Origin: Xanthomarina sp. F1114
GTDB lineage: Bacteria; Bacteroidota; Bacteroidia; Flavobacteriales; Flavobacteriaceae
NCBI RefSeq assembly: GCF_026410255.1
Contig: NZ_JAPMLL010000015.1
Coordinates: 1 to 64,000, forward strand
DNA length: 64,000 nucleotides
Direction of reading: 5' to 3'
Below are positions 34,238 through 47,417 of this stretch, piece after piece. A program made the position numbers and the translations under genes. How positions within the stretch are numbered: position 1 is the first letter of the stretch; every line of letters starts with the position of its first letter. The notes beneath the pieces are model-generated. The model ran no database searches and had not been told where the DNA came from. It was given only the letters and a program-made list of their open reading frames with translations.

Positions 34238-34321
34238 AATACTTTGAGAGTATTAAAATATGTAGTAATATTGCACTCTCTTTATAAAAAGAAGAGTGTC
34301 GAATTAGCTTAAATGCTAATG

Positions 34322-34395
34322 GGTCCTATAACTCAGCTGGTTAGAGTATCTGACTCATAATCAGAAAGTCCCTGGTTCGAGCCCAGGTGGGACCA
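34322..34395 (+). tRNA. tRNA with CAU anticodon (Ile2 or Met)
   Basis: The 74-nt sequence folds as a tRNA: acceptor GGTCCTA/TGGGACC (34322-34328, 34388-34394), D stem ACTC/GAGT, anticodon stem TCTGA/TCAGA with loop CTCATAA (anticodon CAT at 34356-34358), T arm CCTGG-TTCGAGC-CCAGG, discriminator A34395. CCA is not encoded. C4-G69 and C5-G68 are present, the pairs known as positive determinants for lysidine synthetase in E. coli, which favours tRNA-Ile2 over elongator Met. The assignment remains open. A terminator follows at 34407-34438. Confidence 0.9.
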
Positions 34396-34406
34396 CTAGT
34401 AAAATC

Positions 34407-34438
34407 AAGCCTTTACAGAAATGTAGAGGCTTTTTTTT
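34407..34438 (+). terminator. Terminator after the tRNA
   Basis: AAGCCTTTACA (34407-34417) pairs with TGTAGAGGCTT (34422-34432) around a GAAA tetraloop with one mismatch, followed by a run of eight T. Confidence 0.88.
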
Positions 34439-34784
34439 ATGTTTTCTATACTAATGTTTGGAAGCCTTTTTTAAAATAGAAACTAATTCAATTGTTTGTA
34501 TATATGTGTTCCTATACCAAAAATTGAGATTTTAAAACAGCAATTAATTTCATACAATTTTCGATAAATAGTATGTTTTCTAATGACTAAAAATATATCG
34601 AAATAGATGTTCAAAGCGTCAAATTTATCTATATACAGGACTTCATCATTGGTTTTTAAAGTATTAATATAATGTTGCTCGGTAGCAATCGAGATTTTTT
34701 TTTAGAAAATGTTGACATTTATCGTTTTTTCTTCACTAAGGGTAAACGGCTGTAAATCAATTTATAACGAAAAAACTAAAAATC
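34439..34784. other. Gene-free stretch with one hairpin
   Basis: These 346 nt hold no supportable gene. Near the end, 34675-34703 can form either TTGC/GCAA or CTCG/CGAG stems, the second followed by a T run, which looks like a terminator or attenuator. Nothing else stands out. Confidence 0.5.
34678..34703 (+). terminator. Possible terminator or attenuator hairpin
   Basis: CTCG (34678-34681) and CGAG (34690-34693) flank an 8-nt loop and are followed by a long T run. A competing stem TTGC/GCAA covers 34675-34688. It lies about 80 nt before the ELWxxDGT gene. The stem is short, so support is weak. Confidence 0.3.
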
Positions 34785-36377
34785 ATGAAAATACAACAAC
34801 TAAAAAGCAGGCAATACATAATTTTTATGGCTATCCTTTCTATTGTCATAAATTCTTATTCCCAACCAACATTACTCAAAGACATTAATGTAGGTTCGGC
34901 ATCTTCTATGGAGAATGCTCAATTTATTAAAATTGGAGACCGTTTATTGTTTAGTGCAGATGACGGCATACATGGCGTAGAAAGTTGGTTAACAGATGGC
35001 ACTAGTTCTGGAACAATACGTTTAGCGGACAATACAACTACTTTAATAGACACGACATATACACCTAATGGGAATGGTTTATTTAAAACAAATGGAACAG
35101 GTATAGAATACGTATTTGCTAATATGGGCTTTACTCTTGTAAATCGAGTTACAAAAGTTAATGACATATGGTTTTTTGTGGCAAATATTGATAGTCAAAA
35201 TAAAGAGGAGTTATGGAAGTCTGACGGAACTGAAGCCGGTACAGTCTTAGTAAAAAAATTTAGGCCTAATTCTTACGATTATGCTTATACTAAAAACTTA
35301 ATTGCGGCATCCAACGGAACAGATCTTTATTTTACAGCAAATGATGGAACCGGTATGGCTTTATGGAAATCTGATGGAACAACAAATGGAACGACAATAA
35401 TTAAGTACTTTGTTAATACACCACAGTATGAAATAGGTAATTTTATTAATTTTAATAATTACACCTATTTTTGGGCTTATAGCGAAGATGAATTCAGTTC
35501 ACTATGGAAAACTAATGGTACAGAAGCAGGAACAGTAATGGTTCAAGAAAAAATTGAAACTAATCTTGCTCCTGGACGTATTTTAGTCTATAACAACAAA
35601 ATTTATTTTCATGGACAAAGACAGGTAGCCACAACTAATTATGGCTGGGAATTATGGGTTTCAGATGGTACCAGTGCTGGAACACGTATGTTTTATGATA
35701 TTAATCCAGACGTTCCAGACGACGTAATTTTAGGCGGTAATCCTTCTAATTTTCACATAGTTAATAATCTACTACTGTTTAAAGCAAATACCGTATTAAA
35801 TGGTAAAGAACTATGGGTAACAAATGGCACGGAAAGCGGAACATTTATGTTAAACGATGTTTATCCCGGACCTAATTCGGGATTTCTTAATGGTACACCT
35901 ATAAATGGATTAAATAAACTATTCTTTACAGGGAATGACGGTAACCAACGGATGCTATGGGAAACTGATGGTACTACCGCAGGAACCGTTCCCTTATACG
36001 ATATTTCTGAGTCAGATTTGCCAATGCAAACGTATTCAGGATACATAAATGACAAACTTTTATTTTTAAAAGAAACTGTAGCTCATGGTAAAGAATTGTG
36101 GAGTTTTAACCCTACACTTTCTGTGGAAGATTTTGATAATGGAAAAAAAACGCATATTTATCCAAATCCAGTAGCTCATAATTTAACCATTGAAAACCCG
36201 AGCACAGACAGTTTTAATTTGAAGGTGTTAAATCAATTAGGGCAAATGGTATTAATTCAAAATCAAAATACAGCTTCAACTACTGTAGATGTTTCAACCT
36301 TATCAAAAGGTCTCTATTTTATACATATTACTTCTGAAAACGGAAATACAGAAACTATTAAATTCATAAAAAAATAA
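34785..36377 (+). CDS. ELWxxDGT-repeat T9SS cargo protein
   Basis: A 530-residue secreted protein: signal peptide (about 1-26), at least seven ELWxxDGT-type repeats and a T9SS type A sorting domain (about 455-530: HIYPNPVAHNLTIENP, LSKGLYFIHI, terminal KFIKK). Repeats include ELWKSDGTEAGT, ALWKSDGTTNGT, SLWKTNGTEAGT, ELWVSDGTSAGT, ELWVTNGTESGT and MLWETDGTTAGT, spaced roughly 50-60 residues, consistent with a beta-propeller. The role of this repeat family is not known; surface display or release is inferred from the sorting domain. It stands alone with a terminator downstream. Confidence 0.9.
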   Translation: MKIQQLKSRQYIIFMAILSIVINSYSQPTLLKDINVGSASSMENAQFIKIGDRLLFSADDGIHGVESWLTDGTSSGTIRLADNTTTLIDTTYTPNGNGLFKTNGTGIEYVFANMGFTLVNRVTKVNDIWFFVANIDSQNKEELWKSDGTEAGTVLVKKFRPNSYDYAYTKNLIAASNGTDLYFTANDGTGMALWKSDGTTNGTTIIKYFVNTPQYEIGNFINFNNYTYFWAYSEDEFSSLWKTNGTEAGTVMVQEKIETNLAPGRILVYNNKIYFHGQRQVATTNYGWELWVSDGTSAGTRMFYDINPDVPDDVILGGNPSNFHIVNNLLLFKANTVLNGKELWVTNGTESGTFMLNDVYPGPNSGFLNGTPINGLNKLFFTGNDGNQRMLWETDGTTAGTVPLYDISESDLPMQTYSGYINDKLLFLKETVAHGKELWSFNPTLSVEDFDNGKKTHIYPNPVAHNLTIENPSTDSFNLKVLNQLGQMVLIQNQNTASTTVDVSTLSKGLYFIHITSENGNTETIKFIKK

Positions 36378-36437
36378 AACGAGACTAACCGATTCTTCAA
36401 ATAGTTGTTAGAACAGAGAAATTACATCATAAAAAGA

Positions 36438-36465
36438 AACCTTTCGAGAAATCGGGAGGTTTTTT
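36438..36465 (+). terminator. Terminator of the ELWxxDGT gene
   Basis: AAACCTTTCGA and TCGGGAGGTTT pair (with G-T wobbles) around a short GAAA loop and run into a T tract at 36460-36465, about 60 nt past the stop codon. Confidence 0.75.
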
Positions 36466-36763
36466 ACTTTTATGTTTTAAGGTAAATTCTACCTTTTTAT
36501 TATTTAATAATCATTAAAACTTCATTCATTTTTTATTTTTCAGAAGATATATCAACATATCATAAAAGGCACTTTTTATTCAAGACAAGTGTAAACCCTA
36601 AGCATTCTCTAATATAATCAAATTTTAAGATTTATAATTCATCCTAAAAAACACAAATGTTGATAACAATGTGGAAAACGATTAAGAGATTTCAAATAAA
36701 CATAAGAATAAAAGTAGACCTTTATGGTCGCGAAATTTCTAAACCCTCAAAACCACAATATAT
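36466..36763. other. Leader region of nrdB with DnaA-box-like sites
   Basis: No gene is seen here. Two 9-mers resembling DnaA boxes, TGTTGATAA at 36658-36666 and TGTGGAAAA at 36670-36678, lie about 90 nt before the nrdB ATG. Each has one mismatch to the complement of TTATCCACA. DnaA is known to bind upstream of nrdAB in E. coli. Confidence 0.35.
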
Positions 36764-38038
36764 ATGAAAATCATTTCGGTTTTAAAAAGAGACTTCCTAA
36801 CGGAACCCTTTGATTTAAACAAGATTACAAATGCTATTTTAAAAGCAATGACGGCCGTTCAACATGGGCAATTAGCCGATGCAGAACGAATTTCTAACAT
36901 GGTTTTTGACTCGTTGTTAGAGCGAAAAAAATTGGATCCAGATTATATTCCTACTGTCGAAGAAGTTCAAGACTTTGTAGAAACAAAACTTATGGAAACT
37001 GGGTTTTTTGATGTTGCTAAAGCATATATTTTATATCGAAATGAACAGTCTAAAAAACGTAAATCCAATATTTTTGAAAAACGTATAAATTTAAAGCCAT
37101 ACGAGTATCCAGAATTATACGAATATGTGCCAGCCATTAGACATTCGTATTGGATTCATACTGAGTTCAATTTTACAAGCGATATTCAGGATTTTAAAAC
37201 ATTACTTACAAGTCAAGAACGTACGGCTATAAAAAATACCATGCTTGCTATTTCTCAAATTGAAGTAGCAGTAAAAAATTTCTGGGGCGAAATTTACCAT
37301 AGAATGCCTAAACCAGAAATAGGTTCTGTAGGTGCTACATTTGCCGAAAGTGAAGTGCGCCATCACGATGCTTACTCACATTTACTTGAAATTTTAGGAT
37401 TAAACGAAGAGTTTAAAAATCTTAAAAAGAAACCTGTAATCATGAAGCGTGTACAGTATTTAGAAACTGCTTTAAAAAACGCAAAAAGTGAAGACAACAA
37501 AGAATATGCAGAATCCGTTTTGCTTTTCTCTCTTTTTATTGAACATGTGTCTCTGTTTTCTCAGTTTTTAATCATTATGGCATTTAATAAGCATAAAAAT
37601 ATGCTAAAAGGAATCTCCAATGTGGTGGAAGCAACTTCTAAAGAAGAGCAAATTCATGGAGATTTTGGAATTGATGTTATTAAAATTATCAAAGCTGAAA
37701 ATCCGGAGTGGTTTGATGAAGATTATAAAGTAATGATTCAAAACATGTGTCGTGAAGCCTTTGATGCAGAAAGCAAAATTATAGATTGGATTTTTGAAGA
37801 CGGCGAATTAGATTTCTTACCAATTAATGTGGTTAACGAATTTATAAAACACCGATTTAACGCTTCTCTTGAAAGCATAGGAATTGATAAAATATTTGAC
37901 ATCGATGAAAAACTTCTGGCAGAAACAGAATGGTTTGACGATGAAATAATAGGCACCAAACATGGCGATTTTTTCGTAAAACGCTCAATCAACTATAGTA
38001 AAAGAACACAAAGTATAACCAGTGACGACCTTTTTTAA
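36764..38038 (+). CDS. nrdB: Ribonucleotide reductase beta subunit with ATP-cone
   Basis: A 424-residue class I radical-generating subunit. Unlike the classical NrdB it carries an ATP-cone at the N-terminus (about 3-95; VLKRDFLTEPFDLNKITNAI and later METGFFDVAKAYILYR). The dimetal site ligands are Glu167, Glu197, His200, Glu260, Glu295 and His298, and a Tyr (204) sits in the E-x-x-H-x-x-x-Y position used for the radical. The C-terminal DDLF tail should dock on NrdA. The arrangement is like Leeuwenhoekiella blandensis NrdB, where the cone controls oligomer state and activity. The nrdA gene follows immediately. Confidence 0.95.
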   Translation: MKIISVLKRDFLTEPFDLNKITNAILKAMTAVQHGQLADAERISNMVFDSLLERKKLDPDYIPTVEEVQDFVETKLMETGFFDVAKAYILYRNEQSKKRKSNIFEKRINLKPYEYPELYEYVPAIRHSYWIHTEFNFTSDIQDFKTLLTSQERTAIKNTMLAISQIEVAVKNFWGEIYHRMPKPEIGSVGATFAESEVRHHDAYSHLLEILGLNEEFKNLKKKPVIMKRVQYLETALKNAKSEDNKEYAESVLLFSLFIEHVSLFSQFLIIMAFNKHKNMLKGISNVVEATSKEEQIHGDFGIDVIKIIKAENPEWFDEDYKVMIQNMCREAFDAESKIIDWIFEDGELDFLPINVVNEFIKHRFNASLESIGIDKIFDIDEKLLAETEWFDDEIIGTKHGDFFVKRSINYSKRTQSITSDDLF

Positions 38039-38039
38039 T

Positions 38040-39836
38040 ATGAACAACGAGAAACTTACCACAAATACAGTAAACAAAGAAGTTAAAACCTCAAACGACA
38101 AGGACCTACTTGTACAATCAAGAAGAGAAGCGCTTAAAAATAATCAACAACAGAGCAATCAAGGTTTTGAATGGTTAACAGAACACAGTAGAAACTTTCT
38201 GTCTATGGGCTATATTTCTAATGGAATGACTGCCGAACAACGCATTCGTGAAATTGCAGATCGCGCCGAAGAAATTCTACAAATTCCAGGATATTCAGAC
38301 AAGTTTTATGGCTATATGTCTGACGGGTTTTACTCGTTAGCATCTCCGGTTTGGTCTAATTTTGGAAAGAAAAGAGGACTTCCTATCAGCTGTTTTGGAT
38401 CTCATGTCTCAGACGATATGGGGAATATTTTATATACCCAATCAGAAGTAGGAATGATGTCTAAATTAGGTGGAGGAACATCTGGTTACTTTGGTAAAAT
38501 CCGTCATCGTGGCGCCGAAGTAAAAAATAATGGTCAAGCCTCAGGAGCTGTTCATATCATGCAACTTTTTGAGTCTATGGTAGATGTTGTAAGCCAAGGT
38601 TCTGTAAGACGTGGTCGTTTTTCACCATATTTACCTGTGGAGCATCCAGATATTATGGAATTCTTAGAAATTGGTACAGAAGGAAACCCAATTCAGGAAT
38701 TAACACATGGAGTTACTGTAACCAATCAATGGATGCAAGAAATGGTTGATGGAGATAACGAAAAGAGAACCATTTGGGCAAAAGTTTTACAGAGAAGAGG
38801 AGAAATGGGATATCCATATATTTTCTTTAAAGACAATGCAAACAATGCTGCAGCTGATGTATATAGAAATGAAAAACATACCATTTATGCAAGTAACTTA
38901 TGTACAGAAATTATGTTACCATCAAGCGACGACTGGTCTTTTGTTTGCGTACTTTCTTCTGTAAATGTATTGCATTACGATAAATGGAAAGATACGGATG
39001 CAGTAGAAACTATGGTATATTTTCTAGATGCTGTAATTACCGAATTTATCGATAAATTAGAAGTTTATAGAGATTCTGAAGATAGAGAAGACCGTCAAAC
39101 CTTCCTATTTATGGAACGTGCTTATAATTTTGCCAAAGAAAATAGATCTTTAGGTTTAGGTGTTTTAGGGTGGCATTCCTTATTACAATCTAAAATGTTG
39201 CCATTTAACAGCCAAGAAGCCTATAATTTAAACAGCGATATTTTTAAACTTATTAAAGAGAAATCCTATGCAGCTTCAGCAGAATTAGCTGAAATATTTG
39301 GTGAGCCAAAAGTTCTTAAAGGATATGGCAGACGTAATGCCACTTTAAATGCTATTGCGCCAACAACCTCATCGGCCTTTATTCTTGGACAAGTATCTCA
39401 AGGAATTGAGCCAATCTGGTCGAATATTTATGTGAAAGATATTGCTAAAATTAAAACAACAATAAAAAACTCATATTTAGAAGATTTATTAGAAGAAAAA
39501 GGACAAAATACACCAGAAGTATGGCGTAGTATTAGAGACTTTGATGGTTCTGTACAACATTTAGATTTCTTAACAGATTTAGAAAAAGACGTATTTAAAA
39601 CGTATTCTGAAATCGACCAGATGGATATTATTTATCAGGCTGCAAATCGTCAGAATCATATAGACCAAGGTCAATCGGTAAATATTATTGTACATCCAGA
39701 TATGCCTGTTAAAGAGATTAATAAAATTCATGTTACAGCTTGGAAATTAGGTTTAAAATCTTTGTATTACCAGCATAGTATGAATGCTGCTCAAAAATTT
39801 AAACAGAAAAAAGAATGTACAAGTTGTGAAGCATAA
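38040..39836 (+). CDS. nrdA: Ribonucleotide reductase alpha subunit, no ATP-cone
   Basis: A 598-residue catalytic subunit that reduces ribonucleoside diphosphates. I start at the ATG at 38040 (MNNEKLTTN), one base after the nrdB stop; an ATG at 38022 overlaps nrdB. Motifs are GTSGYFGKIRHRG, the active-site NLCTEI, PTTSSAFILGQVSQGIEP, and the C-terminal redox pair Cys593-T-S-Cys596. The protein is short because the ATP-cone found at the N-terminus of many NrdA proteins is absent, being on NrdB here. A terminator follows at 39866-39896. Confidence 0.96.
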   Translation: MNNEKLTTNTVNKEVKTSNDKDLLVQSRREALKNNQQQSNQGFEWLTEHSRNFLSMGYISNGMTAEQRIREIADRAEEILQIPGYSDKFYGYMSDGFYSLASPVWSNFGKKRGLPISCFGSHVSDDMGNILYTQSEVGMMSKLGGGTSGYFGKIRHRGAEVKNNGQASGAVHIMQLFESMVDVVSQGSVRRGRFSPYLPVEHPDIMEFLEIGTEGNPIQELTHGVTVTNQWMQEMVDGDNEKRTIWAKVLQRRGEMGYPYIFFKDNANNAAADVYRNEKHTIYASNLCTEIMLPSSDDWSFVCVLSSVNVLHYDKWKDTDAVETMVYFLDAVITEFIDKLEVYRDSEDREDRQTFLFMERAYNFAKENRSLGLGVLGWHSLLQSKMLPFNSQEAYNLNSDIFKLIKEKSYAASAELAEIFGEPKVLKGYGRRNATLNAIAPTTSSAFILGQVSQGIEPIWSNIYVKDIAKIKTTIKNSYLEDLLEEKGQNTPEVWRSIRDFDGSVQHLDFLTDLEKDVFKTYSEIDQMDIIYQAANRQNHIDQGQSVNIIVHPDMPVKEINKIHVTAWKLGLKSLYYQHSMNAAQKFKQKKECTSCEA

Positions 39837-39865
39837 TTGCTAAATATTTATTTTTAAGTTTAATT

Positions 39866-39896
39866 AAAAAAACCTGTCTTTATAGATGGGTTTTTT
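39866..39896 (+). terminator. Terminator of nrdBA
   Basis: AACCTGTCT (39871-39879) pairs with AGATGGGTT (39884-39892), with two G-T wobbles and a TTAT loop, flanked by an A run before and a T run after. Confidence 0.8.
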
Positions 39897-40305
39897 GTTT
39901 AGTTGATATTCTTATAAAAGAGTGATAATTATTGTTTTTAGGTTTTGTTAGTTTGATTTTTAAACGAATAAAAGTAAAAATAAAAAATAAGTGCTATCCA
40001 TAAAGTATAAGATGCTTACCGTTATTTAAAAGATATAGGCCTTTATAAACAAAGTTAAAAAGGATAATTACTTATTGGAATAATAGATTTATTTTTTTAG
40101 AATTTTAACTATCTTTGATATGAAGTTTTATTTAAAGTTTATTGAAAACTATGGTTCACTCTATGTGGCTTTCTATCTTCTTATTTAGAGTTTTATAACA
40201 TAACAAAATACAAAATGGGAAAAGTGAATTTGGTATTTTGGAGACCTTATTTTTTTCTTAAAAATATTGAATTTAAGTGTGGTCATTGTATAATTATAGC
40301 TAATA
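39897..40305. other. Gene-free stretch with one promoter box
   Basis: The 409 nt are AT-rich and hold no supportable gene. A TATCTTTG -7 box lies at 40110-40117, about 190 nt before the next gene. A 22-codon reading frame at 40120-40188 starts too close to that box to be transcribed from it. Confidence 0.5.
40110..40117 (+). promoter_or_regulatory. Possible -7 box upstream of the TolB-TPR gene
   Basis: TATCTTTG fully fits TAnnTTTG. Transcription would start near 40124, giving a leader of about 180 nt. The -33 region has no TTG. Confidence 0.38.
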
Positions 40306-41922
40306 ATGTCTAATAGCCAAACAGAAAAAAAAGTAATACCTAAACATTCTAAAAAGGAGGTTTTAAGAGAATTGGACTCTATTTTATCTAGTGATATGTT
40401 TTCTCGATCTTCAGTTTTATCCAATTTTCTAAAATTTATTGTAGAAGAAACCTTGGAAGGCAACACAGAAGGGCTTAAAGAGTACACTATTGCGGTAAAT
40501 GCTTTAGGTAAACCAGAAGACTTTAACCCCCAAATAGATGCTATTGTTAGAATTCATGCTGGTAGACTTAGAAGATTGTTAAATGAGTACTACACGAAGC
40601 CCGAAACTATAAGCACTATAAAAATTGAAGTGATTAAAGGCACGTATGTTCCGGTGTTTAGAACGTATCCAATTAGTAAACCAAAAACAGAAATAAAAAC
40701 TGTTAGAAACACCAAGGTATTTACTCGTTCAAAACTTACTCTTGCAGTTATTCCTTTTAGAAATTTATGTCCCGATAACGACTATAAGTTTTTTGTTGAT
40801 GGTTTTGGAGAAGAACTTACAAGACTATTTAGCACCTTTGAAGATATTGCTGTAATTGCACATCATTCAACTCGAAAGTATGCTACTAATCCTGAAGATA
40901 TTCGAGTTATTGGTTCAGATTTAGGAGTGCATTATATTATATCTGGATCGGTTAAACGTTCATCTGAAAAAATTTGGGTAAATGTAGAACTTTTGAAAAC
41001 CATGAATGGCATGCAAGTTTGGTCCAAAACATACAATTATCCTTTAAATATTGATAACCTAATAAACATTCAGGATCAGATTGTGGAAAATGTTTGCTCG
41101 GTATTGGGTGGATACTATGGATTCATTATTCATGAAAACTCTAGATTTATTGAGCCACTTGCTTCTAATTTAAACTCTTTCGATGCTGCTTTTTGGAATT
41201 ACTACTTCCACATGAACTATTCAGAAGATACTTATCTAAAAACTCGAAAGGCTTTAGAAAATGCTATAAGTCACGACCCAAATTATGCAACAGGATTAGC
41301 TATGTTGGCCGAGCTATATGTGCTTGCTCATTCTTTAGGTTACCCAACTGTAGAAGACCCAGTTCAAACATCTTTTAAACTTACCAAAAAAGCATTAAAA
41401 ATAGATCCTAGATGTCAACATGCCAATCATGAATATGGATGGCTTCAAGTTTATTTACAAAATAAAGAAGAAGCCGTTAAAGCCTTAGAATATACTTTAA
41501 CGCTAAATCCTTATTCAGTTTCGTTAATGGGAGGTGTTGGGTTTAATTTGGCTTGTGCAGGAGAGTTTGCAAGAGCTGAAGTATTACTTACACAATCTTT
41601 AACGCTTAATCCCCATTGTCCTTGGTGGTTTTATTTTGGTTTTTTCTTAGTGTATTATCAAAAAGGAAATTACCAAAAAGCACTTGAATACGCTAATAAA
41701 ATAGAAACTGTAGATGTGTTTGTCAAACCTTTAACAAACGCATCCGCAAAGGCCCAATTAGGCTTAATTAAAGAGGCACAAGAGGATGTTAAAATATTAA
41801 ATGAAGAGTTTTCAGAAACCATGAAAAATCTTTACCCAACTTTAGATGCATTTCTTCTAGATAAATCTTTAGTTAAAAATATTATTCAGGGAGCTAAAAA
41901 GGCTGGAGTTAATTTGGATTAG
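40306..41922 (+). CDS. TolB/FlgO-like domain and TPR protein
   Basis: A 538-residue protein without a signal peptide. The N-terminal region (about 15-115) includes FLKFIVEETLEGNTEGLKEY and DAIVRIHAGRLRRLLNEYY, a block found in adenylate-cyclase-associated and TPR proteins and perhaps a DNA-binding fold. Residues about 145-275 are TolB/FlgO-like (LAVIPFRNLCPDNDYKFFVDGFGEEL, then YIISGSVKRSSEKIWVNVELL). TPR-like helices occupy about 295-500. I infer a cytoplasmic regulator or scaffold, possibly of the cassette that starts 190 nt downstream on the same strand. No cyclase domain is present. Confidence 0.78.
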   Translation: MSNSQTEKKVIPKHSKKEVLRELDSILSSDMFSRSSVLSNFLKFIVEETLEGNTEGLKEYTIAVNALGKPEDFNPQIDAIVRIHAGRLRRLLNEYYTKPETISTIKIEVIKGTYVPVFRTYPISKPKTEIKTVRNTKVFTRSKLTLAVIPFRNLCPDNDYKFFVDGFGEELTRLFSTFEDIAVIAHHSTRKYATNPEDIRVIGSDLGVHYIISGSVKRSSEKIWVNVELLKTMNGMQVWSKTYNYPLNIDNLINIQDQIVENVCSVLGGYYGFIIHENSRFIEPLASNLNSFDAAFWNYYFHMNYSEDTYLKTRKALENAISHDPNYATGLAMLAELYVLAHSLGYPTVEDPVQTSFKLTKKALKIDPRCQHANHEYGWLQVYLQNKEEAVKALEYTLTLNPYSVSLMGGVGFNLACAGEFARAEVLLTQSLTLNPHCPWWFYFGFFLVYYQKGNYQKALEYANKIETVDVFVKPLTNASAKAQLGLIKEAQEDVKILNEEFSETMKNLYPTLDAFLLDKSLVKNIIQGAKKAGVNLD

Positions 41923-42110
41923 ACTTTTTTCTCATTCACCGTTTTTAAAATATATAACTCCTTGTATTCGTACTTTATACCAACCCAACTACATCTGAGG
42001 TATACAATTATTATTATTCATATTTAACCGTTAAGTAACCGTATAACACTTACAATTGGTGCTGACCTGATTTATATTTACAGTATTAATAAAAATTAGG
42101 TTAATTTCTC

Positions 42111-42368
42111 ATGAACAAAAAAATGATTCCTATTGTTCAATTATTTCCAGATTTTGAGGAAAAAATTGACTTTCTGTTTCAAACGGATGAAAATTTTCGG
42201 GACCTGTGTTCAGATTATATATTATGTGTCGCTATCGTACAAAAAATGAAAAAGGAGTCTCATTTAGATATTCAGAGCCGCAGGGAATATAAAGAATTGC
42301 AAGAAAGTTTAGAAGAGGAAATTCTACAAAATATTATGAGCGACAAAAAAAACCTTGAGAATAATTAA
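42111..42368 (+). CDS. Small helical protein of unknown function
   Basis: I do not recognise this 85-residue protein. It is strongly helical with heptad-like spacing (FEEKIDFLFQTDENFRDLCSDYILCVAIVQKMKKE, then REYKELQESLEEEILQNI), reminiscent of the two-helix DUF465/YdcH type. It has no signal peptide, so it is cytoplasmic. It opens the cassette whose next gene begins 40 nt later. The ATG is preceded by a T/A-rich leader without SD. Confidence 0.7.
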   Translation: MNKKMIPIVQLFPDFEEKIDFLFQTDENFRDLCSDYILCVAIVQKMKKESHLDIQSRREYKELQESLEEEILQNIMSDKKNLENN

Positions 42369-42408
42369 TCCTTAAATCAATAAACAAACACTTAAAACTC
42401 CAGTTATT

Positions 42409-42885
42409 ATGAAGAAATTAATTTTTACTCTTAGTCTCGTCTTAGTTTCCATGTCGTCATCTTTATTTGCGCAAAGCAATACAGAGGAGATAGATATGGT
42501 GCAATCTATTTTTGGCATGGAAAAGAAGGCTCTTGTAGCTGAAGTTATTCAACCTGAAACAGCTAAGAGTGATGCTTTTTGGGCTTTATACGATGAATAT
42601 GAAGTGAAACGTAAAGACCTTGGAAAGCGTCGTATTGTATTATTAAATTCTTATGCTGACAGCTACGATACTTTAGACGAGGCGACCATTGATAAAATCC
42701 TCAAAGAGATGATGAGTCTACAAGTCACTACGGACAAGCTCATTGGTAATTATGCAAAAAAAATCAAGAAATCAGTAGATGTGAAAACGGCTGCGCAATT
42801 TTATCAAATTGAAGGCTACTTGTTGAGTAAGATCAGAACCACTATTTTGGAGAATATCCCAGTGATAGGAGAGCTTGATAAATAA
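42409..42885 (+). CDS. Small periplasmic helical protein
   Basis: A 158-residue secreted protein with a signal peptide cleaved after Ala21 (LFA-Q). The mature part is nearly all helix (WALYDEYEVKRKDLGKRRIVLLNSYADSYD, KILKEMMSLQVTTDKLIGNYAKKIKK) and somewhat resembles Spy/CpxP-like periplasmic chaperones, but no diagnostic LTxxQ motif is seen. I leave it unnamed. It lies 40 nt after the 85-residue gene and 92 nt before the first DUF1254 gene. Confidence 0.75.
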   Translation: MKKLIFTLSLVLVSMSSSLFAQSNTEEIDMVQSIFGMEKKALVAEVIQPETAKSDAFWALYDEYEVKRKDLGKRRIVLLNSYADSYDTLDEATIDKILKEMMSLQVTTDKLIGNYAKKIKKSVDVKTAAQFYQIEGYLLSKIRTTILENIPVIGELDK

Positions 42886-42977
42886 TCCTAAAAGAAACGT
42901 TATTCCATAACATTGCAAATTTGAATGAATTATTTAAACTATACTATAAATACTGTTACATTTTAAAAATAAGTATC

Positions 42978-44543
42978 ATGAATTTAAAACAAAAATCAGC
43001 ATTTGTCCTCATTGGAATTTCTTCAGTGATGATAATGAACGGACAAAACACCCAAGACCAAGAAACTGCAAAGTCAATCAAGGAAATCAAGGCAAAATTC
43101 AACACAGATGTCCCTGAGAATATTTTGACGCCAAGTGTGGTAGAAACACGCATTGGGACCTTGAATTTCTTTGACGGTTTGCCCTCAGAAGAAACAGTAA
43201 CAAAAGTTTATGACAACCTTGACTTTATTAGAGGAGTCGAAACTTTTTTGAATGGAATTCCTGCCACTTCAATTGAAGGTCTTCGTCTTGGATTCCATAG
43301 TGTAGGATCCACCGATTTTAACAAAGTAGCCATCTTTGATGATCTGCTGGACTCAAACCCATTGTTTTTAACGGGAAATACGAGTACCGTATATGCTTCC
43401 GCTTTTCTAAATCTTGAAGAGCATGGCCCCATGGTGATGGAAGTGCCTGCTGGCTCTGGCCCTGGAACAGTTAACGATGCCTATTTTAGGTTTGTGATAG
43501 ACATGGGAGGTCCCGGCCCGGATAGAGGCAAAGGAGGTAAATATTTAATTCTTCCTCCAGATTATAAAGGCGAAACCCCTGAAGGTTATTTTGTAGCAAA
43601 ATCAACCAGTTATGTAAACTGGCTAATTTTAAGAGGCTTTTTGGTTGATGGTAAAACTGATGCTTCCAAAAAAATGTATCGTGATGGCTTAAAAATATAT
43701 CCTTTAAAGGATAAGGATAATCAGCCAGCAATGGAGTTTATTAATGTTTCAACCAAGGAATTTAATACCATCCATGCCAACAACTATGATTTCTATCATG
43801 AATTAAATGAAGTGATTCAACGGGAGCCAGTTTCGTTAATTGACCCTGAGTTAAGAGGACTGTTCGCAGCTATTGGGATTGAAAAGGGACAACCCTTTAA
43901 TCCGGATGATAGAATGAAGGGAATATTGACCGATGCCGTAGCGGTAGGCAATGCCACCGCGCGAGCCTTGCTTTTTAGATCTCGCGAAAAAGAAGCCGCC
44001 ATTTTCAAGACCGGCCATTGGGAAGCCGCTTTTATGGGAGGAAATTATCAATGGCTAAAAGATGATGGCAACGGAGGCCGTTTTCTAGATGCAAGAACGA
44101 GATATTTCTACGGAGCTACGGTAAACACACCGGCGATGGTTTTAAAAATGGTTGGTCTAGGTTCTCAATATGCATATGCAATGGTTGATTCCAAAGGAGA
44201 TTATTTGGATGGAAATAAAAACTATACGCTCAACATCCCGGCCAATGCGCCAGCAAAAGAGTTTTGGTCGATTGTTATGTACGATCCACAAACGCGTTCT
44301 ATGTTGCAGACAGACAAGCCTTTTCCGAGTATAAGCAGTCAAAGAACGCCACTTGTAAAGAATGCAGATGGATCAATAACTCTTTATGTAGGGCCAAAAA
44401 ACAATGCGCCCAAAGGCAAAGAAGCCAACTGGCTACAATCTAAAGCTGGGAAAGGATTTTTTGTGGCCTTTAGATTATACGGCCCACTTGAGCCTTGGTT
44501 TGACCAAACTTGGATTCCGGGAGATTTTGAGCTGCAAAAATAA
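42978..44543 (+). CDS. Secreted DUF1254/DUF1214 protein A
   Basis: A 521-residue secreted protein; start at 42978 (MNLKQKSAFV) gives a signal peptide ending near NGQ23. An upstream TTG would add a nonsensical 19-residue tail. The family layout is present: a DUF1254 region (about 75-215, LGFHSVGSTDFNKVAIF, NTSTVYASAFLNLEEHGPMV) and a DUF1214 C-terminal beta region (about 390-521) with KEFWSIVMYDPQTRSM, ITLYVGPKNN, KEANWLQ and FRLYGPLEPW. The function of the family is unknown. The gene's G+C is higher than its neighbours. A related paralogue follows directly. Confidence 0.86.
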   Translation: MNLKQKSAFVLIGISSVMIMNGQNTQDQETAKSIKEIKAKFNTDVPENILTPSVVETRIGTLNFFDGLPSEETVTKVYDNLDFIRGVETFLNGIPATSIEGLRLGFHSVGSTDFNKVAIFDDLLDSNPLFLTGNTSTVYASAFLNLEEHGPMVMEVPAGSGPGTVNDAYFRFVIDMGGPGPDRGKGGKYLILPPDYKGETPEGYFVAKSTSYVNWLILRGFLVDGKTDASKKMYRDGLKIYPLKDKDNQPAMEFINVSTKEFNTIHANNYDFYHELNEVIQREPVSLIDPELRGLFAAIGIEKGQPFNPDDRMKGILTDAVAVGNATARALLFRSREKEAAIFKTGHWEAAFMGGNYQWLKDDGNGGRFLDARTRYFYGATVNTPAMVLKMVGLGSQYAYAMVDSKGDYLDGNKNYTLNIPANAPAKEFWSIVMYDPQTRSMLQTDKPFPSISSQRTPLVKNADGSITLYVGPKNNAPKGKEANWLQSKAGKGFFVAFRLYGPLEPWFDQTWIPGDFELQK

Positions 44544-44566
44544 GTAATCAATTGGGATTGAATTTG

Positions 44567-44600
44567 TGTTGGAGCTCAGAGATTATATAAAACTCCAACA
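44567..44600 (+). other. Inverted repeat between the two DUF1254 genes
   Basis: TGTTGGAG (44567-44574) and CTCCAACA (44593-44600) are perfect 8-bp arms with an 18-nt loop, in the 125-nt gap between the two genes. No T run follows, so it may be an mRNA-stability or partial-attenuation stem instead of a full terminator. Confidence 0.5.
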
Positions 44601-44668
44601 TATAAAAAAGTCTCAAGTATTATTTATTTGAAATCAAATTTAAGAAATAAGAATAAAATTCAACAATT

Positions 44669-46099
44669 ATGAAATCAACAAATCCAATACTTTTAATAAC
44701 GGTGCTGGCACTATTTTTGACCCTGTCCTGTAATGAGAAAAAAGATAAAAAAGAAGCCGTAGCAACTACTGAGTTGTCTTTGGATTCTATAACTGCCATC
44801 ACTAAGAAAGCCTATATTTACGGCTATCCAATAGTTGACAACTACCGTATTCAGTACGATTATTTTGAAGACAGTACCAATTCCGAATTTAAAGCACCAT
44901 GGAATCATGTGGCAAATATCGCCCGTGTTTATACACCTAAGGATGTCGCTGTACAAACACCAAATTCGGATACGCCGTATTCATTTGTGGGTTTTGATTT
45001 ACGCGCAGAGCCCATTGTGCTAACTGTTCCAGATATTGAAGCCAATCGTTATTTCATGATCCAATTTATTGATGCCTATACCTTTAATTTCGATTATGTT
45101 GGTTCCCGTACCACAGGGAACAAAGGCGCTAAATTTATGGTTGCTGGACCTAATTGGAAGGGCGAGACTCCAGAAGGCATAGACAAAGTTATAACATCTG
45201 AAACCCAATTTGTAATGGCCTTCTACAGAACCCAACTTTTTAATCCGGGTGATATCGATAATATAAAGAAAATACAAGCGCAGTTTAAAGCGGAGCCTCT
45301 ATCCTCTTATTTGGGAACAGAACCAGTGAAGGTTGAAAAAATTGATTTCTTTAAACCTATTCCTCAGGCAGAGCAAAAAACTTCTCTTGAATTCTTTAAG
45401 GAGATGAATTTTGCTTTGCAATTTATGCCACCCAATAACACTGAAACAGAACTGATGTCCCGTTTTGCAAAAATTGGAGTTGGTGCAGGAAAAGATTTTG
45501 ACGTTCAAAAGCTTTCTCCAGAAGTAAAAGCTGCTATGGAAAAGGGAATACAGGAAGCTTGGACGGTGGATTTTGCAGCGCTAAAGAAAAAATTTGAAAC
45601 AGGAGAGGTGACTTCTGGAGACATATTTGGAACCCGTGAGTTTCTAAAAAACAATTACCTCTATAGAATGTCTGGGGCTGTGATTGGCATCTTTGGGAAC
45701 TCGAAAGAGGAAGCGATGTATCCTTTTTACGGCGTAGATTCGGACGGTAATCCATTGGATGGCACTACAAATAAGTACACCCTACATTTTGTCGAAGGAG
45801 AGTTGCCACCGGTCAATGCTTTTTGGTCTTTGACGATGTATAAAATGCCACAAAGTTTATTGGTAGATAATCCCATCAATAGATATTTATTGAACTCAAC
45901 TATGATTCCAGATTTTGTAAGAGATAAGGATGGTGGCATTACGCTCTATCTTCAAAGTGAGTCTCCAGGAAAAGCGAAGGAAGCCAATTGGTTACCAGCA
46001 CCAAAAGGACCATTTGTGACGATTATGAGGTTGTATTGGCCAAAAGAAGCAGCGTTGGACGGATCTTGGAAAAATCCTCCGTTGGAATTGGTGAAATGA
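44669..46099 (+). CDS. DUF1254/DUF1214 lipoprotein B
   Basis: A 476-residue lipoprotein with lipidated Cys21 (LTLSCNEKKDKKE). The DUF1254 signature AYIYGYPIVDNYRIQYDYF is at about 48-66, followed by DVAVQTPNSDTPYSFVGFDLRAEPIVL. The DUF1214 region holds NAFWSLTMYKMPQSLLVDN, ITLYLQSESPGKAKEANWLPAP and a final LYWPKEAALDGSWKNPPLELV. It shares the FWS-MY and KEANWL patterns with the preceding gene, so the pair arose by duplication. It is probably on the outer-membrane or inner-leaflet surface. Function unknown. Confidence 0.88.
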   Translation: MKSTNPILLITVLALFLTLSCNEKKDKKEAVATTELSLDSITAITKKAYIYGYPIVDNYRIQYDYFEDSTNSEFKAPWNHVANIARVYTPKDVAVQTPNSDTPYSFVGFDLRAEPIVLTVPDIEANRYFMIQFIDAYTFNFDYVGSRTTGNKGAKFMVAGPNWKGETPEGIDKVITSETQFVMAFYRTQLFNPGDIDNIKKIQAQFKAEPLSSYLGTEPVKVEKIDFFKPIPQAEQKTSLEFFKEMNFALQFMPPNNTETELMSRFAKIGVGAGKDFDVQKLSPEVKAAMEKGIQEAWTVDFAALKKKFETGEVTSGDIFGTREFLKNNYLYRMSGAVIGIFGNSKEEAMYPFYGVDSDGNPLDGTTNKYTLHFVEGELPPVNAFWSLTMYKMPQSLLVDNPINRYLLNSTMIPDFVRDKDGGITLYLQSESPGKAKEANWLPAPKGPFVTIMRLYWPKEAALDGSWKNPPLELVK

Positions 46100-46145
46100 A
46101 CGTTAATAACTTCAATTAATTAATAATATTTGCAAACCTAATAAA

Positions 46146-46952
46146 ATGAAAAAACTCAATCTCTTAATAATAGCATTGCTCCTAAGTAGCGGATACGCTA
46201 TTAGCCAAGAAAAAGAACAAGAACCAGAAGCGGGAGGTGATCTGGAAGCTAAAATCCAAAACCCGATTGCTAATCTTATAAGTGTTCCTTTTCAGAATAA
46301 TACGGATTTTGGGATTGGTCCAGATGATCGTACAAAAAACACTTTGAATATTCAACCTGTAATTCCATTTTCTTTAGGAGAAAGTCTCAATTTAATTACT
46401 AGAACTATTATTCCAATTATCTCGCAACCCACTTTCCCCGGTGAAAGAGAATTTGGATTGGGCGATATTAGTTTAAGCTTGTTTCTCACGCCAGCAAAAC
46501 CCGGAAAACTTATTTATGGTGGAGGGGTAGCCTTAGGGCTTCCTACAGCGACCGATTCCTATTTAGGAGCAGAAAAATGGACTGCTGGTCCGTCGGTTGT
46601 CTTGTTGATACAACCAAAAGGATGGACTGTTGGAACCTTAATTCAAAACACCTGGTCTTATGCAGGATCTGATGATCGTGGGGATGTGAATTTTTTTTAC
46701 TCTCAAATATTTGTGACTAAAAATTTACAGAAAGGATGGTACGTAAATACGGCGCCTATTATAACTTCAAACTGGGAAGCCCCTTCGGGCGAACAATGGA
46801 CCGTACCTTTAGGAGCTGGAGTTGGCAAGTTATTCCATTTGGGAAAATTACCTATCAACGCACAAGCAGGATATTATGTTAACGTAGAAAAACCTACGGG
46901 TGGTCCAGATTCACAATTGAGAGTACAGGCTACTTTATTGTTTCCGAAATAA
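46146..46952 (+). CDS. Outer-membrane beta-barrel transporter-like protein
   Basis: A 268-residue outer-membrane protein with a signal peptide (about 1-20). The mature chain alternates hydrophobic and polar residues like a beta-barrel and opens with the segment DLEAKIQNPIANLISVPFQNNTDFGIG, common in the neuromedin U/phenol-MetA-degradation-like 'transporter' family. Later come GEREFGLGDISLSLFLTP, YGGGVALGLPTATDS and GWTVGTLIQNTWSYAG. It likely forms a channel for small hydrophobic or organic molecules. It lies 46 nt after the DUF1254 lipoprotein on the same strand and belongs with the cassette. Confidence 0.85.
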   Translation: MKKLNLLIIALLLSSGYAISQEKEQEPEAGGDLEAKIQNPIANLISVPFQNNTDFGIGPDDRTKNTLNIQPVIPFSLGESLNLITRTIIPIISQPTFPGEREFGLGDISLSLFLTPAKPGKLIYGGGVALGLPTATDSYLGAEKWTAGPSVVLLIQPKGWTVGTLIQNTWSYAGSDDRGDVNFFYSQIFVTKNLQKGWYVNTAPIITSNWEAPSGEQWTVPLGAGVGKLFHLGKLPINAQAGYYVNVEKPTGGPDSQLRVQATLLFPK

Positions 46953-47081
46953 AACATTCCTTATAAAAGTCTTAGTAGGCAAAAATAATTACAAACTATA
47001 TAATTAAACAATTCAAATATGTAAAACAAGTTCCTGCCAATTGTTTTTTGTATCTTCCCTATATTCGTATAAAATGGTTTT

Positions 47082-47417
47082 ATGAAATTACCTATTACGT
47101 TAGTTTTTATTGTATGCGTTGCATTTCAATGTTCAGCTCAAAAAGTATTCTCAGTGCAATATGCCAATCAAGCAGATGTAAAAGTATTTGTTGTGGATTA
47201 TGAGAATCAGGCAGACTTAAAGGTTTATAAAGTGAAGTACGCCAATCAAGCTGGAAAAAATGATGGAAAATGGTTTTTTACAGATTATGAGAATCAGGCT
47301 AAAAAGACCATCTATTATGTAGATTATCAAAATCAAGCCGATTTAAAAATATTTTTTGTCGAATATGAAAATCAAGCTGGTTGGAAAAATAAATCAAAAC
47401 AGCATTTGATGTATTGA
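47082..47417 (+). CDS. Secreted DUF6150-like 13-residue repeat protein
   Basis: A 111-residue secreted protein with a signal peptide cleaved near Ala19. The mature part is made of six copies of a YxNQA motif: YANQADVKVFVVD, YENQADLKVYKVK, YANQAGKNDGKWFFTD, YENQAKKTIYYVD, YQNQADLKIFFVE, YENQAGWKNK. The unit is 13 residues except for a 16-residue copy. I recall this as the DUF6150 type. Each unit should give one or two beta-strands. Function unknown. The tail is short and basic. Confidence 0.85.
   Translation: MKLPITLVFIVCVAFQCSAQKVFSVQYANQADVKVFVVDYENQADLKVYKVKYANQAGKNDGKWFFTDYENQAKKTIYYVDYQNQADLKIFFVEYENQAGWKNKSKQHLMY

Follow-up and report, generated by a model that had tools for sequence, protein, structure and literature searches.

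A resident-looking regulator head and an acquired-looking DUF1254/DUF1214 payload in a six-gene cassette of Xanthomarina sp. F1114

Do six neighbouring genes on one strand of a flavobacterial contig belong to one system, and what might that system handle? The question arose in a 64,000-nucleotide stretch of Xanthomarina sp. F1114 (the window; positions 1 to 64,000 of contig NZ_JAPMLL010000015.1, contig C6 of a 3.25-Mb draft genome). A preliminary description of the window had proposed a coherent set, with a hint of horizontal transfer, comprising a regulator, two small helical proteins, two DUF1254 paralogues and an outer-membrane barrel. The six plus-strand reading frames from 40306 to 46952 all open as claimed, and we refer to their products, in gene order, as the regulator, h85, h158, sec, lipo and the barrel (Table 1). 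The intergenic gaps measure 188, 40, 92, 125 and 46 nucleotides; the third shrinks to 35 when counted from the TTG at 42921, which opens the longest sec reading frame upstream of the ATG at 42978 and may be the true start. The anatomy that emerges is well supported: a resident-looking regulator head (regulator and h85) precedes an acquired, exchangeable and exported payload (h158, sec, lipo and barrel), and the families involved co-recur across phyla.

The foreign signature of the cassette sits in the payload and not in the head, because h158, sec, lipo and the barrel are outliers in composition and the regulator is ordinary. The four 1-kb blocks from 43 to 47 kb have G+C contents of 0.38-0.41, against a maximum of 0.377 in the other 60 blocks of the window. 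The hand counts from which transfer had been suspected (29 G+C of 60 at 43441-43500 and 21 of 60 at 41221-41280) are exact, the former value being reached by 18 of the 1,066 consecutive 60-base blocks of the window. As background we used 318 genes of the same genome, drawn from 400 kb plus the window outside the cassette, with length-matched comparisons. The third-position G+C of sec is reached by none of 144 such genes, that of lipo by none of 160 and that of h158 by 1.2% of 85, the overall G+C of h158 being mildly raised (7.1% of the 85 reach it). The corresponding value for the regulator is equalled or exceeded by 62% of 137 genes. The barrel owes its foreign signature solely to overall G+C, which no length-matched gene reaches; its codon use is borderline or ordinary, with 9.2% of 206 genes reaching its third-position G+C, 3.4% using favoured codons as sparingly and 37% showing as much bias. 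The outliers in codon use are h158, sec and lipo, and those in G+C are sec, lipo and the barrel; h85 is too short for the test, the background holding no genes of matching length. Of the outcomes named beforehand as refuting, neither a lack of recurrence nor average codon use was found for the payload; in codon use three payload genes are atypical, the regulator is average and the barrel borderline or ordinary.

At the same site in related species, the head looks resident and the payload looks acquired. Five of the eight genomes in the genus, that of Xanthomarina sp. F1114 among them, hold PF06863 (DUF1254). The tRNA-Met site was compared in two of the seven congeners, G038 and G414; the patatin region of a third, G415, holds no tRNA. 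In G038 the flanks match both sides of the variable interval, with 68 bases between them and tRNA-Met at the left, and there is no cassette. The G414 site, in the window's orientation, holds a divergent arylsulfatase (PF00884, 198 bits), the regulator, h85 and three VPA0735-type DUF1254 genes, all between the ribonucleotide reductase and DUF6150/patatin genes. The regulator of G414 is 91% identical to that of the window and its h85 63%; its three DUF1254 proteins are 48, 43 and 73% identical to sec, and no gene of lipo type (as best match), no barrel and no h158 was seen at its site. DNA identity to G414 is 97.6% right of the cassette, 92.6% in the reductase genes and 87-91% left of tRNA-Met; it is 88.5% over the head, which is therefore no more diverged than the left flank, and 74.7% over sec. 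That one regulator has different payloads behind it at a single site in sister species shows how the cargo turns over. In G415, nine PF06863 matches occur, seven of them clustered with two head copies (L147 and L148); the two units there have the regulator, h85, the barrel, a further barrel of Phenol_MetA_deg type and DUF1254 genes, and past one of the heads lie three more DUF1254 genes. At L148 the second barrel belongs to Phenol_MetA_deg with a score of 74.9 bits.

Recurrence of the gene set in unrelated genomes had been named as a check, and the set does recur: two congeners, a Verrucomicrobiaceae genome and Dongia carry it as a module whose payload varies rather than in one fixed arrangement. 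The locus of Verrucomicrobiaceae E54 starts with a divergent regulator, followed by h85, DUF3300, DUF2950, lipo, a short protein with DUF1254/DUF1214, a barrel and finally another barrel, counted as Phenol_MetA_deg-type; in Dongia, regulator, DUF3300, DUF2950 and lipo are all divergent from h85. Locus counts were made by tblastn; the gene caller misplaced some genes in GC-rich loci. A six-sequence h85 profile matched 24 places in 15 of 398 Pseudomonadota genomes. At all of the 13 top-scoring places (E <=1.7e-6), which include the Dongia locus already in the profile, the regulator is present, within 0.5 kb at eight and at 1.8-6.5 kb at five, and 11 of the 13 hold a payload family (DUF1254, DUF3300/DUF2950 or sulfatase): DUF3300 with DUF2950 at five, DUF1254 at five and sulfatase at four. 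The 10 stretches of weaker places hold neither regulator nor payload family, with a single exception, a sulfatase match of 48 bits; several resemble DUF465, Pfam confirming two of them, and the eleventh of the weaker places falls within one of the 13 best stretches. A three-sequence h85 profile matched three of 295 other Bacteroidota genomes, one match being a Pfam-confirmed DUF465, and none of the three surrounding stretches holds a DUF1254 gene. Among control stretches, 29 of 30 lack head and payload families. The DUF3300-DUF2950 pairing is known from root nodule bacteria, where, in the available part of the report, the gene neighbourhood gave no hints of its role (PMC4653623). The same pair is a payload of the head in E54, in Dongia and in four further Pseudomonadota stretches, whereas the window carries h158 and DUF1254 genes instead.

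In the head, the regulator carries tetratricopeptide repeats (TPRs) by Pfam, a TolB-like region and a predicted OmpR/PhoB-type winged helix at about residues 16-120. A structural model of its N-terminus, a region that was aligned in 20 relatives, has a predicted local distance difference test score of 86.5. Against the PDB its nine best matches are OmpR-family DNA-binding domains (Z <=7.3), followed by ScpB and others at Z <=6.3, with Escherichia coli CadC at rank 15. The evidence for a winged helix is fair but not decisive, since Z is at most 7.3, and the earlier label 'regulator' fits the predicted domain. HilA/CadC-type regulators fuse an OmpR-type winged helix, of the kind predicted here, to other domains, and the TolB-TPR part weakly matches HilA/EilA; unlike these, the window's regulator lies far below the model cut-off (33.8 bits against NF009037, cut-off 589) and so outside the family, and is paired with a YdcH-like small protein. 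None of the six genes has an NCBIfam match over cut-off. For h85 there is no Pfam match over cut-off either, DUF465 (PF04325) included, and Pfam DUF465 is likewise absent from the h85-type relatives at L213, L211, L206 and L203 and from that of L148. Comparison of the h85 family (17 relatives) with seven DUF465-type proteins, three of them checked by Pfam, gave an hhalign probability of 97.3 over 75 columns. By this profile-profile relation, h85 is a divergent relative of DUF465/YdcH; the h85 type is linked to the regulator, and the Pfam-confirmed DUF465 places L152, L218 and L222 are not. PADLOC gave Csm2 for h85 (E 0.001, 17.2 bits) and a methyltransferase model for the regulator (E 0.0027); we judged both to be chance matches and rejected a role in anti-phage defence.

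Both paralogues proved to contain DUF1254 and DUF1214, as described, with Pfam scores (PF06863/PF06742; cut-offs 22.2/25 bits) of 90.2/109.1 for sec and 146.3/119.8 for lipo. By sequence, sec matches PDB entries 3vb9/2p3y (E 2e-74) and lipo matches 3u07 (E 2e-46). The sec model superposes on 2p3y with Z 39.0, a root-mean-square deviation of 2.5 and 32% identity over 454 aligned residues; further matches are VPA0106 (Z 22.5) and a Burkholderia protein (Z 11.8), below which the RetS sensor, GOLD and adhesin domains at Z <6 reflect only a common beta-sandwich. Sec and lipo, the latter compared by sequence only, belong to the two-domain fold family of Vibrio parahaemolyticus VPA0735 (2p3y/3vb9) and VPA0106 (3u07). 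Those are structural-genomics entries without assigned function, whereas the window's paralogues belong to a cassette that looks regulated and also encodes a barrel and h158. Twenty-one columns are common to 85 lipo-type and 13 sec-type sequences, counted after removal of three long-branch rows. They include Asn, Tyr, Asp, Arg and Trp (among them N134, Y139, D167, R219, W430, Y435, N484 and R499 of sec), with no His or Cys, which speaks against a His-based metal site; they would fit a hydrolase, a lyase or a binder and prove nothing. For h158, there was no trusted Pfam match and one PDB match by sequence, at E 0.055; relatives, mostly weak matches, occur in 118 of 395 Bacteroidia genomes including its own. 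Sulfatase or DUF1254 genes occur in four of the 12 h158 stretches examined and are absent from the other eight; one of the four, L252, has three sulfatases and five DUF1254-type genes. The barrel and nine relatives gave no Pfam match (0 of 10 alignment members at E 0.01), Phenol_MetA_deg (PF13557) included, and the barrel profile gave none in the PDB.

The relatives of lipo point across phyla. In a family sample of 120 genomes the best outside relative is 43% identical and 11 of the 119 others have any match; congener G415, outside that sample, has a relative at 58%. Among the matches listed from GTDB representatives, a protein from an Ignavibacteriaceae metagenome-assembled genome shares 72% identity with lipo, and those of organisms such as Ferruginibacter, Bradyrhizobium, Acidobacteria, Rhodococcus and Verrucomicrobia share 59-66%. 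A quick tree of 88 rows pairs the window protein with the Ignavibacteria one (support 100) and the closest G415 protein with one of Colwellia (95); it interleaves phyla, and paralogy could also split groups. Lipo relatives also occur in 283 plasmid records, 112 of them called conjugative. The transfer suspected in the preliminary description is supported for the payload, by composition, cross-phylum relatives and tree, and not for the regulator, which has ordinary codon use and a close counterpart at the same site in a sister species. Carriage by phage was rejected: matches to sec came from only four records, all of them named Listeria phages, and reach 26-34% identity. A Foldseek comparison with viral models gave DUF1214/DUF1254 proteins of the giant viruses Harvfovirus and Satyrvirus (BFVD A0A3G5A4B8 and A0A3G5ADJ2) and otherwise poor matches; DUF1254/DUF1214 proteins are found in bacteria and archaea.

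The earlier suggestion of a secreted enzyme or binding system for a small molecule stays a guess, which an excess of arylsulfatases near DUF1254 genes narrows. A PF00884 gene lies within 10 kb of at least seven of 27 DUF1254 clusters, against an expectation of 1.7 calculated from the sizes of the genomes and their numbers of sulfatases (P 0.0008); the clusters come from 16 genomes chosen for holding DUF1254. Among 80 GTDB lipo loci (the best 80 of at least 581 relatives; 62 of the loci span at least 15 kb, and there is no matched random control), a sulfatase is present at 19, a barrel of the same family as the window's at 15, one of Phenol_MetA_deg type at 11, a sec-type gene at 17 and DUF3300 with DUF2950 at two. 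By annotation, which is incomplete for plasmids, an arylsulfatase lies near DUF1254 in three of five plasmid records and none is annotated in the other two. The genome of Xanthomarina sp. F1114 has three PF00884 places outside the cassette, one of them 2.3 kb from a barrel paralogue.

In the literature searched we found no demonstrated function for DUF1254/DUF1214 (VPA0735, COG5361, PF06863/PF06742). The family occurs in fungi and algae, and the Chlamydomonas orthologue of a Malassezia PF06742 protein is reported, in the portion of the paper available, to be induced by sulfur depletion (PMC4634964). Tabulated entries include Caulobacter CC_2518 in an iron-response table (PMC3751524) and an entry in a Bradyrhizobium NnrR table (PMC6710368). 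COG5361 lies on plasmid pANL, which is described in an excerpt as rich in sulfur-related genes (PMC8049743) and whose drop in transcripts is explained, in the accessible text, by plasmid competition (PMC13125312); the DUF1254 gene of pANL in Synechococcus elongatus PCC 7942 (NZ_CP130603.1, 43662-45086) stands apart from the sulfur genes of the plasmid. The available parts of PMC10734457, PMC2744874, PMC6299218, PMC10686091, PMC7537768 and PMC7426719 add no function.

On neighbourhood statistics and one expression remark, we tentatively favour, at somewhat less than even chances, a two-part, horizontally assembled envelope cassette that would handle sulfate-ester or aromatic small molecules. 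We infer control of the payload by the head, as we do the subcellular sites, the substrate class and catalysis by the DUF1254 proteins. The head, with its winged-helix/TPR regulator and YdcH-like h85, would do the controlling; the regulator probably binds DNA close to the promoters of head and payload, and may answer to a ligand or to h85. The payload would be a replaceable exported set, with DUF1254/DUF1214 beta-sandwich proteins in the periplasm or on the membrane, an outer-membrane channel and h158. The channel would admit a sulfate-ester or aromatic molecule, the DUF1254 proteins would bind or cleave it, and an arylsulfatase, in the cassette or elsewhere, would free sulfate. A wider proposal, which we consider unlikely, is that the head controls mobile envelope cassettes of one class, spread over Bacteroidota, Verrucomicrobiota and Pseudomonadota, and that their exchangeable cargo of DUF1254/DUF1214, DUF3300/DUF2950, h158, barrels and arylsulfatases would form an undescribed sulfated-small-molecule pathway, with DUF1254/DUF1214 as a new enzyme family partnering sulfatases. 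The head does bring several families without assigned function (DUF1254, DUF3300 and DUF2950) into one genomic context. With a repeated partner set and the sulfatase link, it yields a testable hypothesis for DUF1254/DUF1214, whose structures have been solved since 2007.

Several observations weigh against sulfate-ester or aromatic handling by a head-controlled cassette. The window's cassette contains no PF00884 gene, 61 of the 80 lipo loci show no sulfatase, and up to 20 of the 27 DUF1254 clusters have none within 10 kb; the chance model for the excess treats positions as independent and ignores the clustering of sulfatases. The head is rare beside lipo, with the regulator at three of the 80 loci and h85 at two. 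Two of the 13 best Pseudomonadota heads lack a payload family, and four of the five with DUF3300/DUF2950 have no DUF1254 in the stretch. In G415 a DUF1254 pair without a head adjoins the patatin gene, and the Z scores of the predicted winged helix reach 7.3 at most.

Alternatively, the cassette may be a module for envelope stress or surface maintenance, in which the regulator would sense the state of the envelope and the exported proteins would protect or remodel the surface, with no catabolism of small molecules. DUF3300, a payload of the same head, is the domain of E. coli YacH, which belongs to the CpxR regulon and whose deletion raised survival in protamine, according to the available part of PMC9600279. 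Listeria lmo1241 (DUF1254) stands in a table of genes altered along with the phage shock response that a bacteriocin provokes (PMC12791056). Such a module would leave the sulfatase excess unaccounted for, and a maintenance function is less often met in a patchy distribution shaped by transfer; on balance we doubt it. We regard as improbable a glycan-directed set, in which DUF1254/DUF1214 proteins would be carbohydrate-active enzymes or binders acting on sulfated polysaccharides. The Malassezia PF06742 protein, thought to be horizontally acquired and secreted, was homology-modelled as a jelly-roll glycosyl hydrolase (PMC4634964, in part), and the weak fold matches of sec include carbohydrate-binding and adhesin domains. 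However, at Z <6 those matches show only the common beta-sandwich, and the published function is itself a prediction from a homology model. The Malassezia protein has DUF1214 like sec and lipo, but is a fungal single gene for which the available text describes no cassette. None of the six genes encodes SusC/SusD or a glycoside hydrolase, and a polysaccharide utilization locus was rejected for lack of SusC/SusD.

Still less probable, in our estimation, is that regulator, small protein and payload have no joint function and merely share a genomic-island hot spot beside tRNA-Met. The interval does also hold a ribonucleotide reductase pair and a Por-secreted protein, and G038 lacks it whole; against a chance assembly stand the recurrence of head and payload families together at other loci, in Verrucomicrobiota and Pseudomonadota, and their absence from all but one of the 30 control stretches. 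As to how the interval arose, integration through tRNA repeats was rejected, since 34320-34560 and 46901-47110 share no exact repeat of at least 10 bases, and no integrase was found among the scanned products of the interval. The Bacteroidetes-type promoter pattern matches five times in the window, against 6.6 expected, and not within the cassette.

Table 1. Positions of the cassette genes and of the borders of their site in the window
Feature	Position	Strand	Basis
Regulator gene	40306..41922	+	Pfam TPRs, structural model of N-terminus, host-like codon use
h85, 85-residue small protein of the head	42111..42368	+	Remote DUF465/YdcH relative by hhalign
h158, exported 158-residue helical protein, first payload gene	42409..42885	+	Signal-peptide-like N-terminus by eye
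sec, exported DUF1254-DUF1214 protein, VPA0735 type	42978..44543 (ATG)	+	Pfam, PDB sequence match, model
lipo, DUF1254-DUF1214 lipoprotein, VPA0106 type	44669..46099	+	Pfam, PDB sequence match, lipobox-like LTLSC by eye
Outer-membrane-barrel-like protein, last payload gene	46146..46952	+	Barrel nature inferred; relatives beside DUF1254 genes
tRNA-Met gene, left border of variable interval	34322..34396	+	ARAGORN
Variable interval between matching flanks	34442..47077		blastn against G038 and G414

Further features were observed around the cassette and its relatives. Just right of tRNA-Met, 34785-36377 encodes a 530-residue protein that carries a Por secretion tail (PF18962) and also matches ChW, and 34437-36431 has no match in the G414 region. 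The ribonucleotide reductase pair (36764-39836; a small subunit with ATP cone and a large subunit) is present in G414 and absent from the site in G038. On contig C22 of the same genome, the barrel paralogue at L039 lies near an arylsulfatase and, by eye, MoxR-, DUF58- and VWA-like genes; similar sets lie next to lipo at seven loci of Pseudomonas, and an Agrobacterium plasmid has one annotated beside an arylsulfatase. In genome G072, at 6777-9252 of L041, a DUF1254 gene lies in two parts with an opposite-strand open reading frame, transposase-like by eye, between them.

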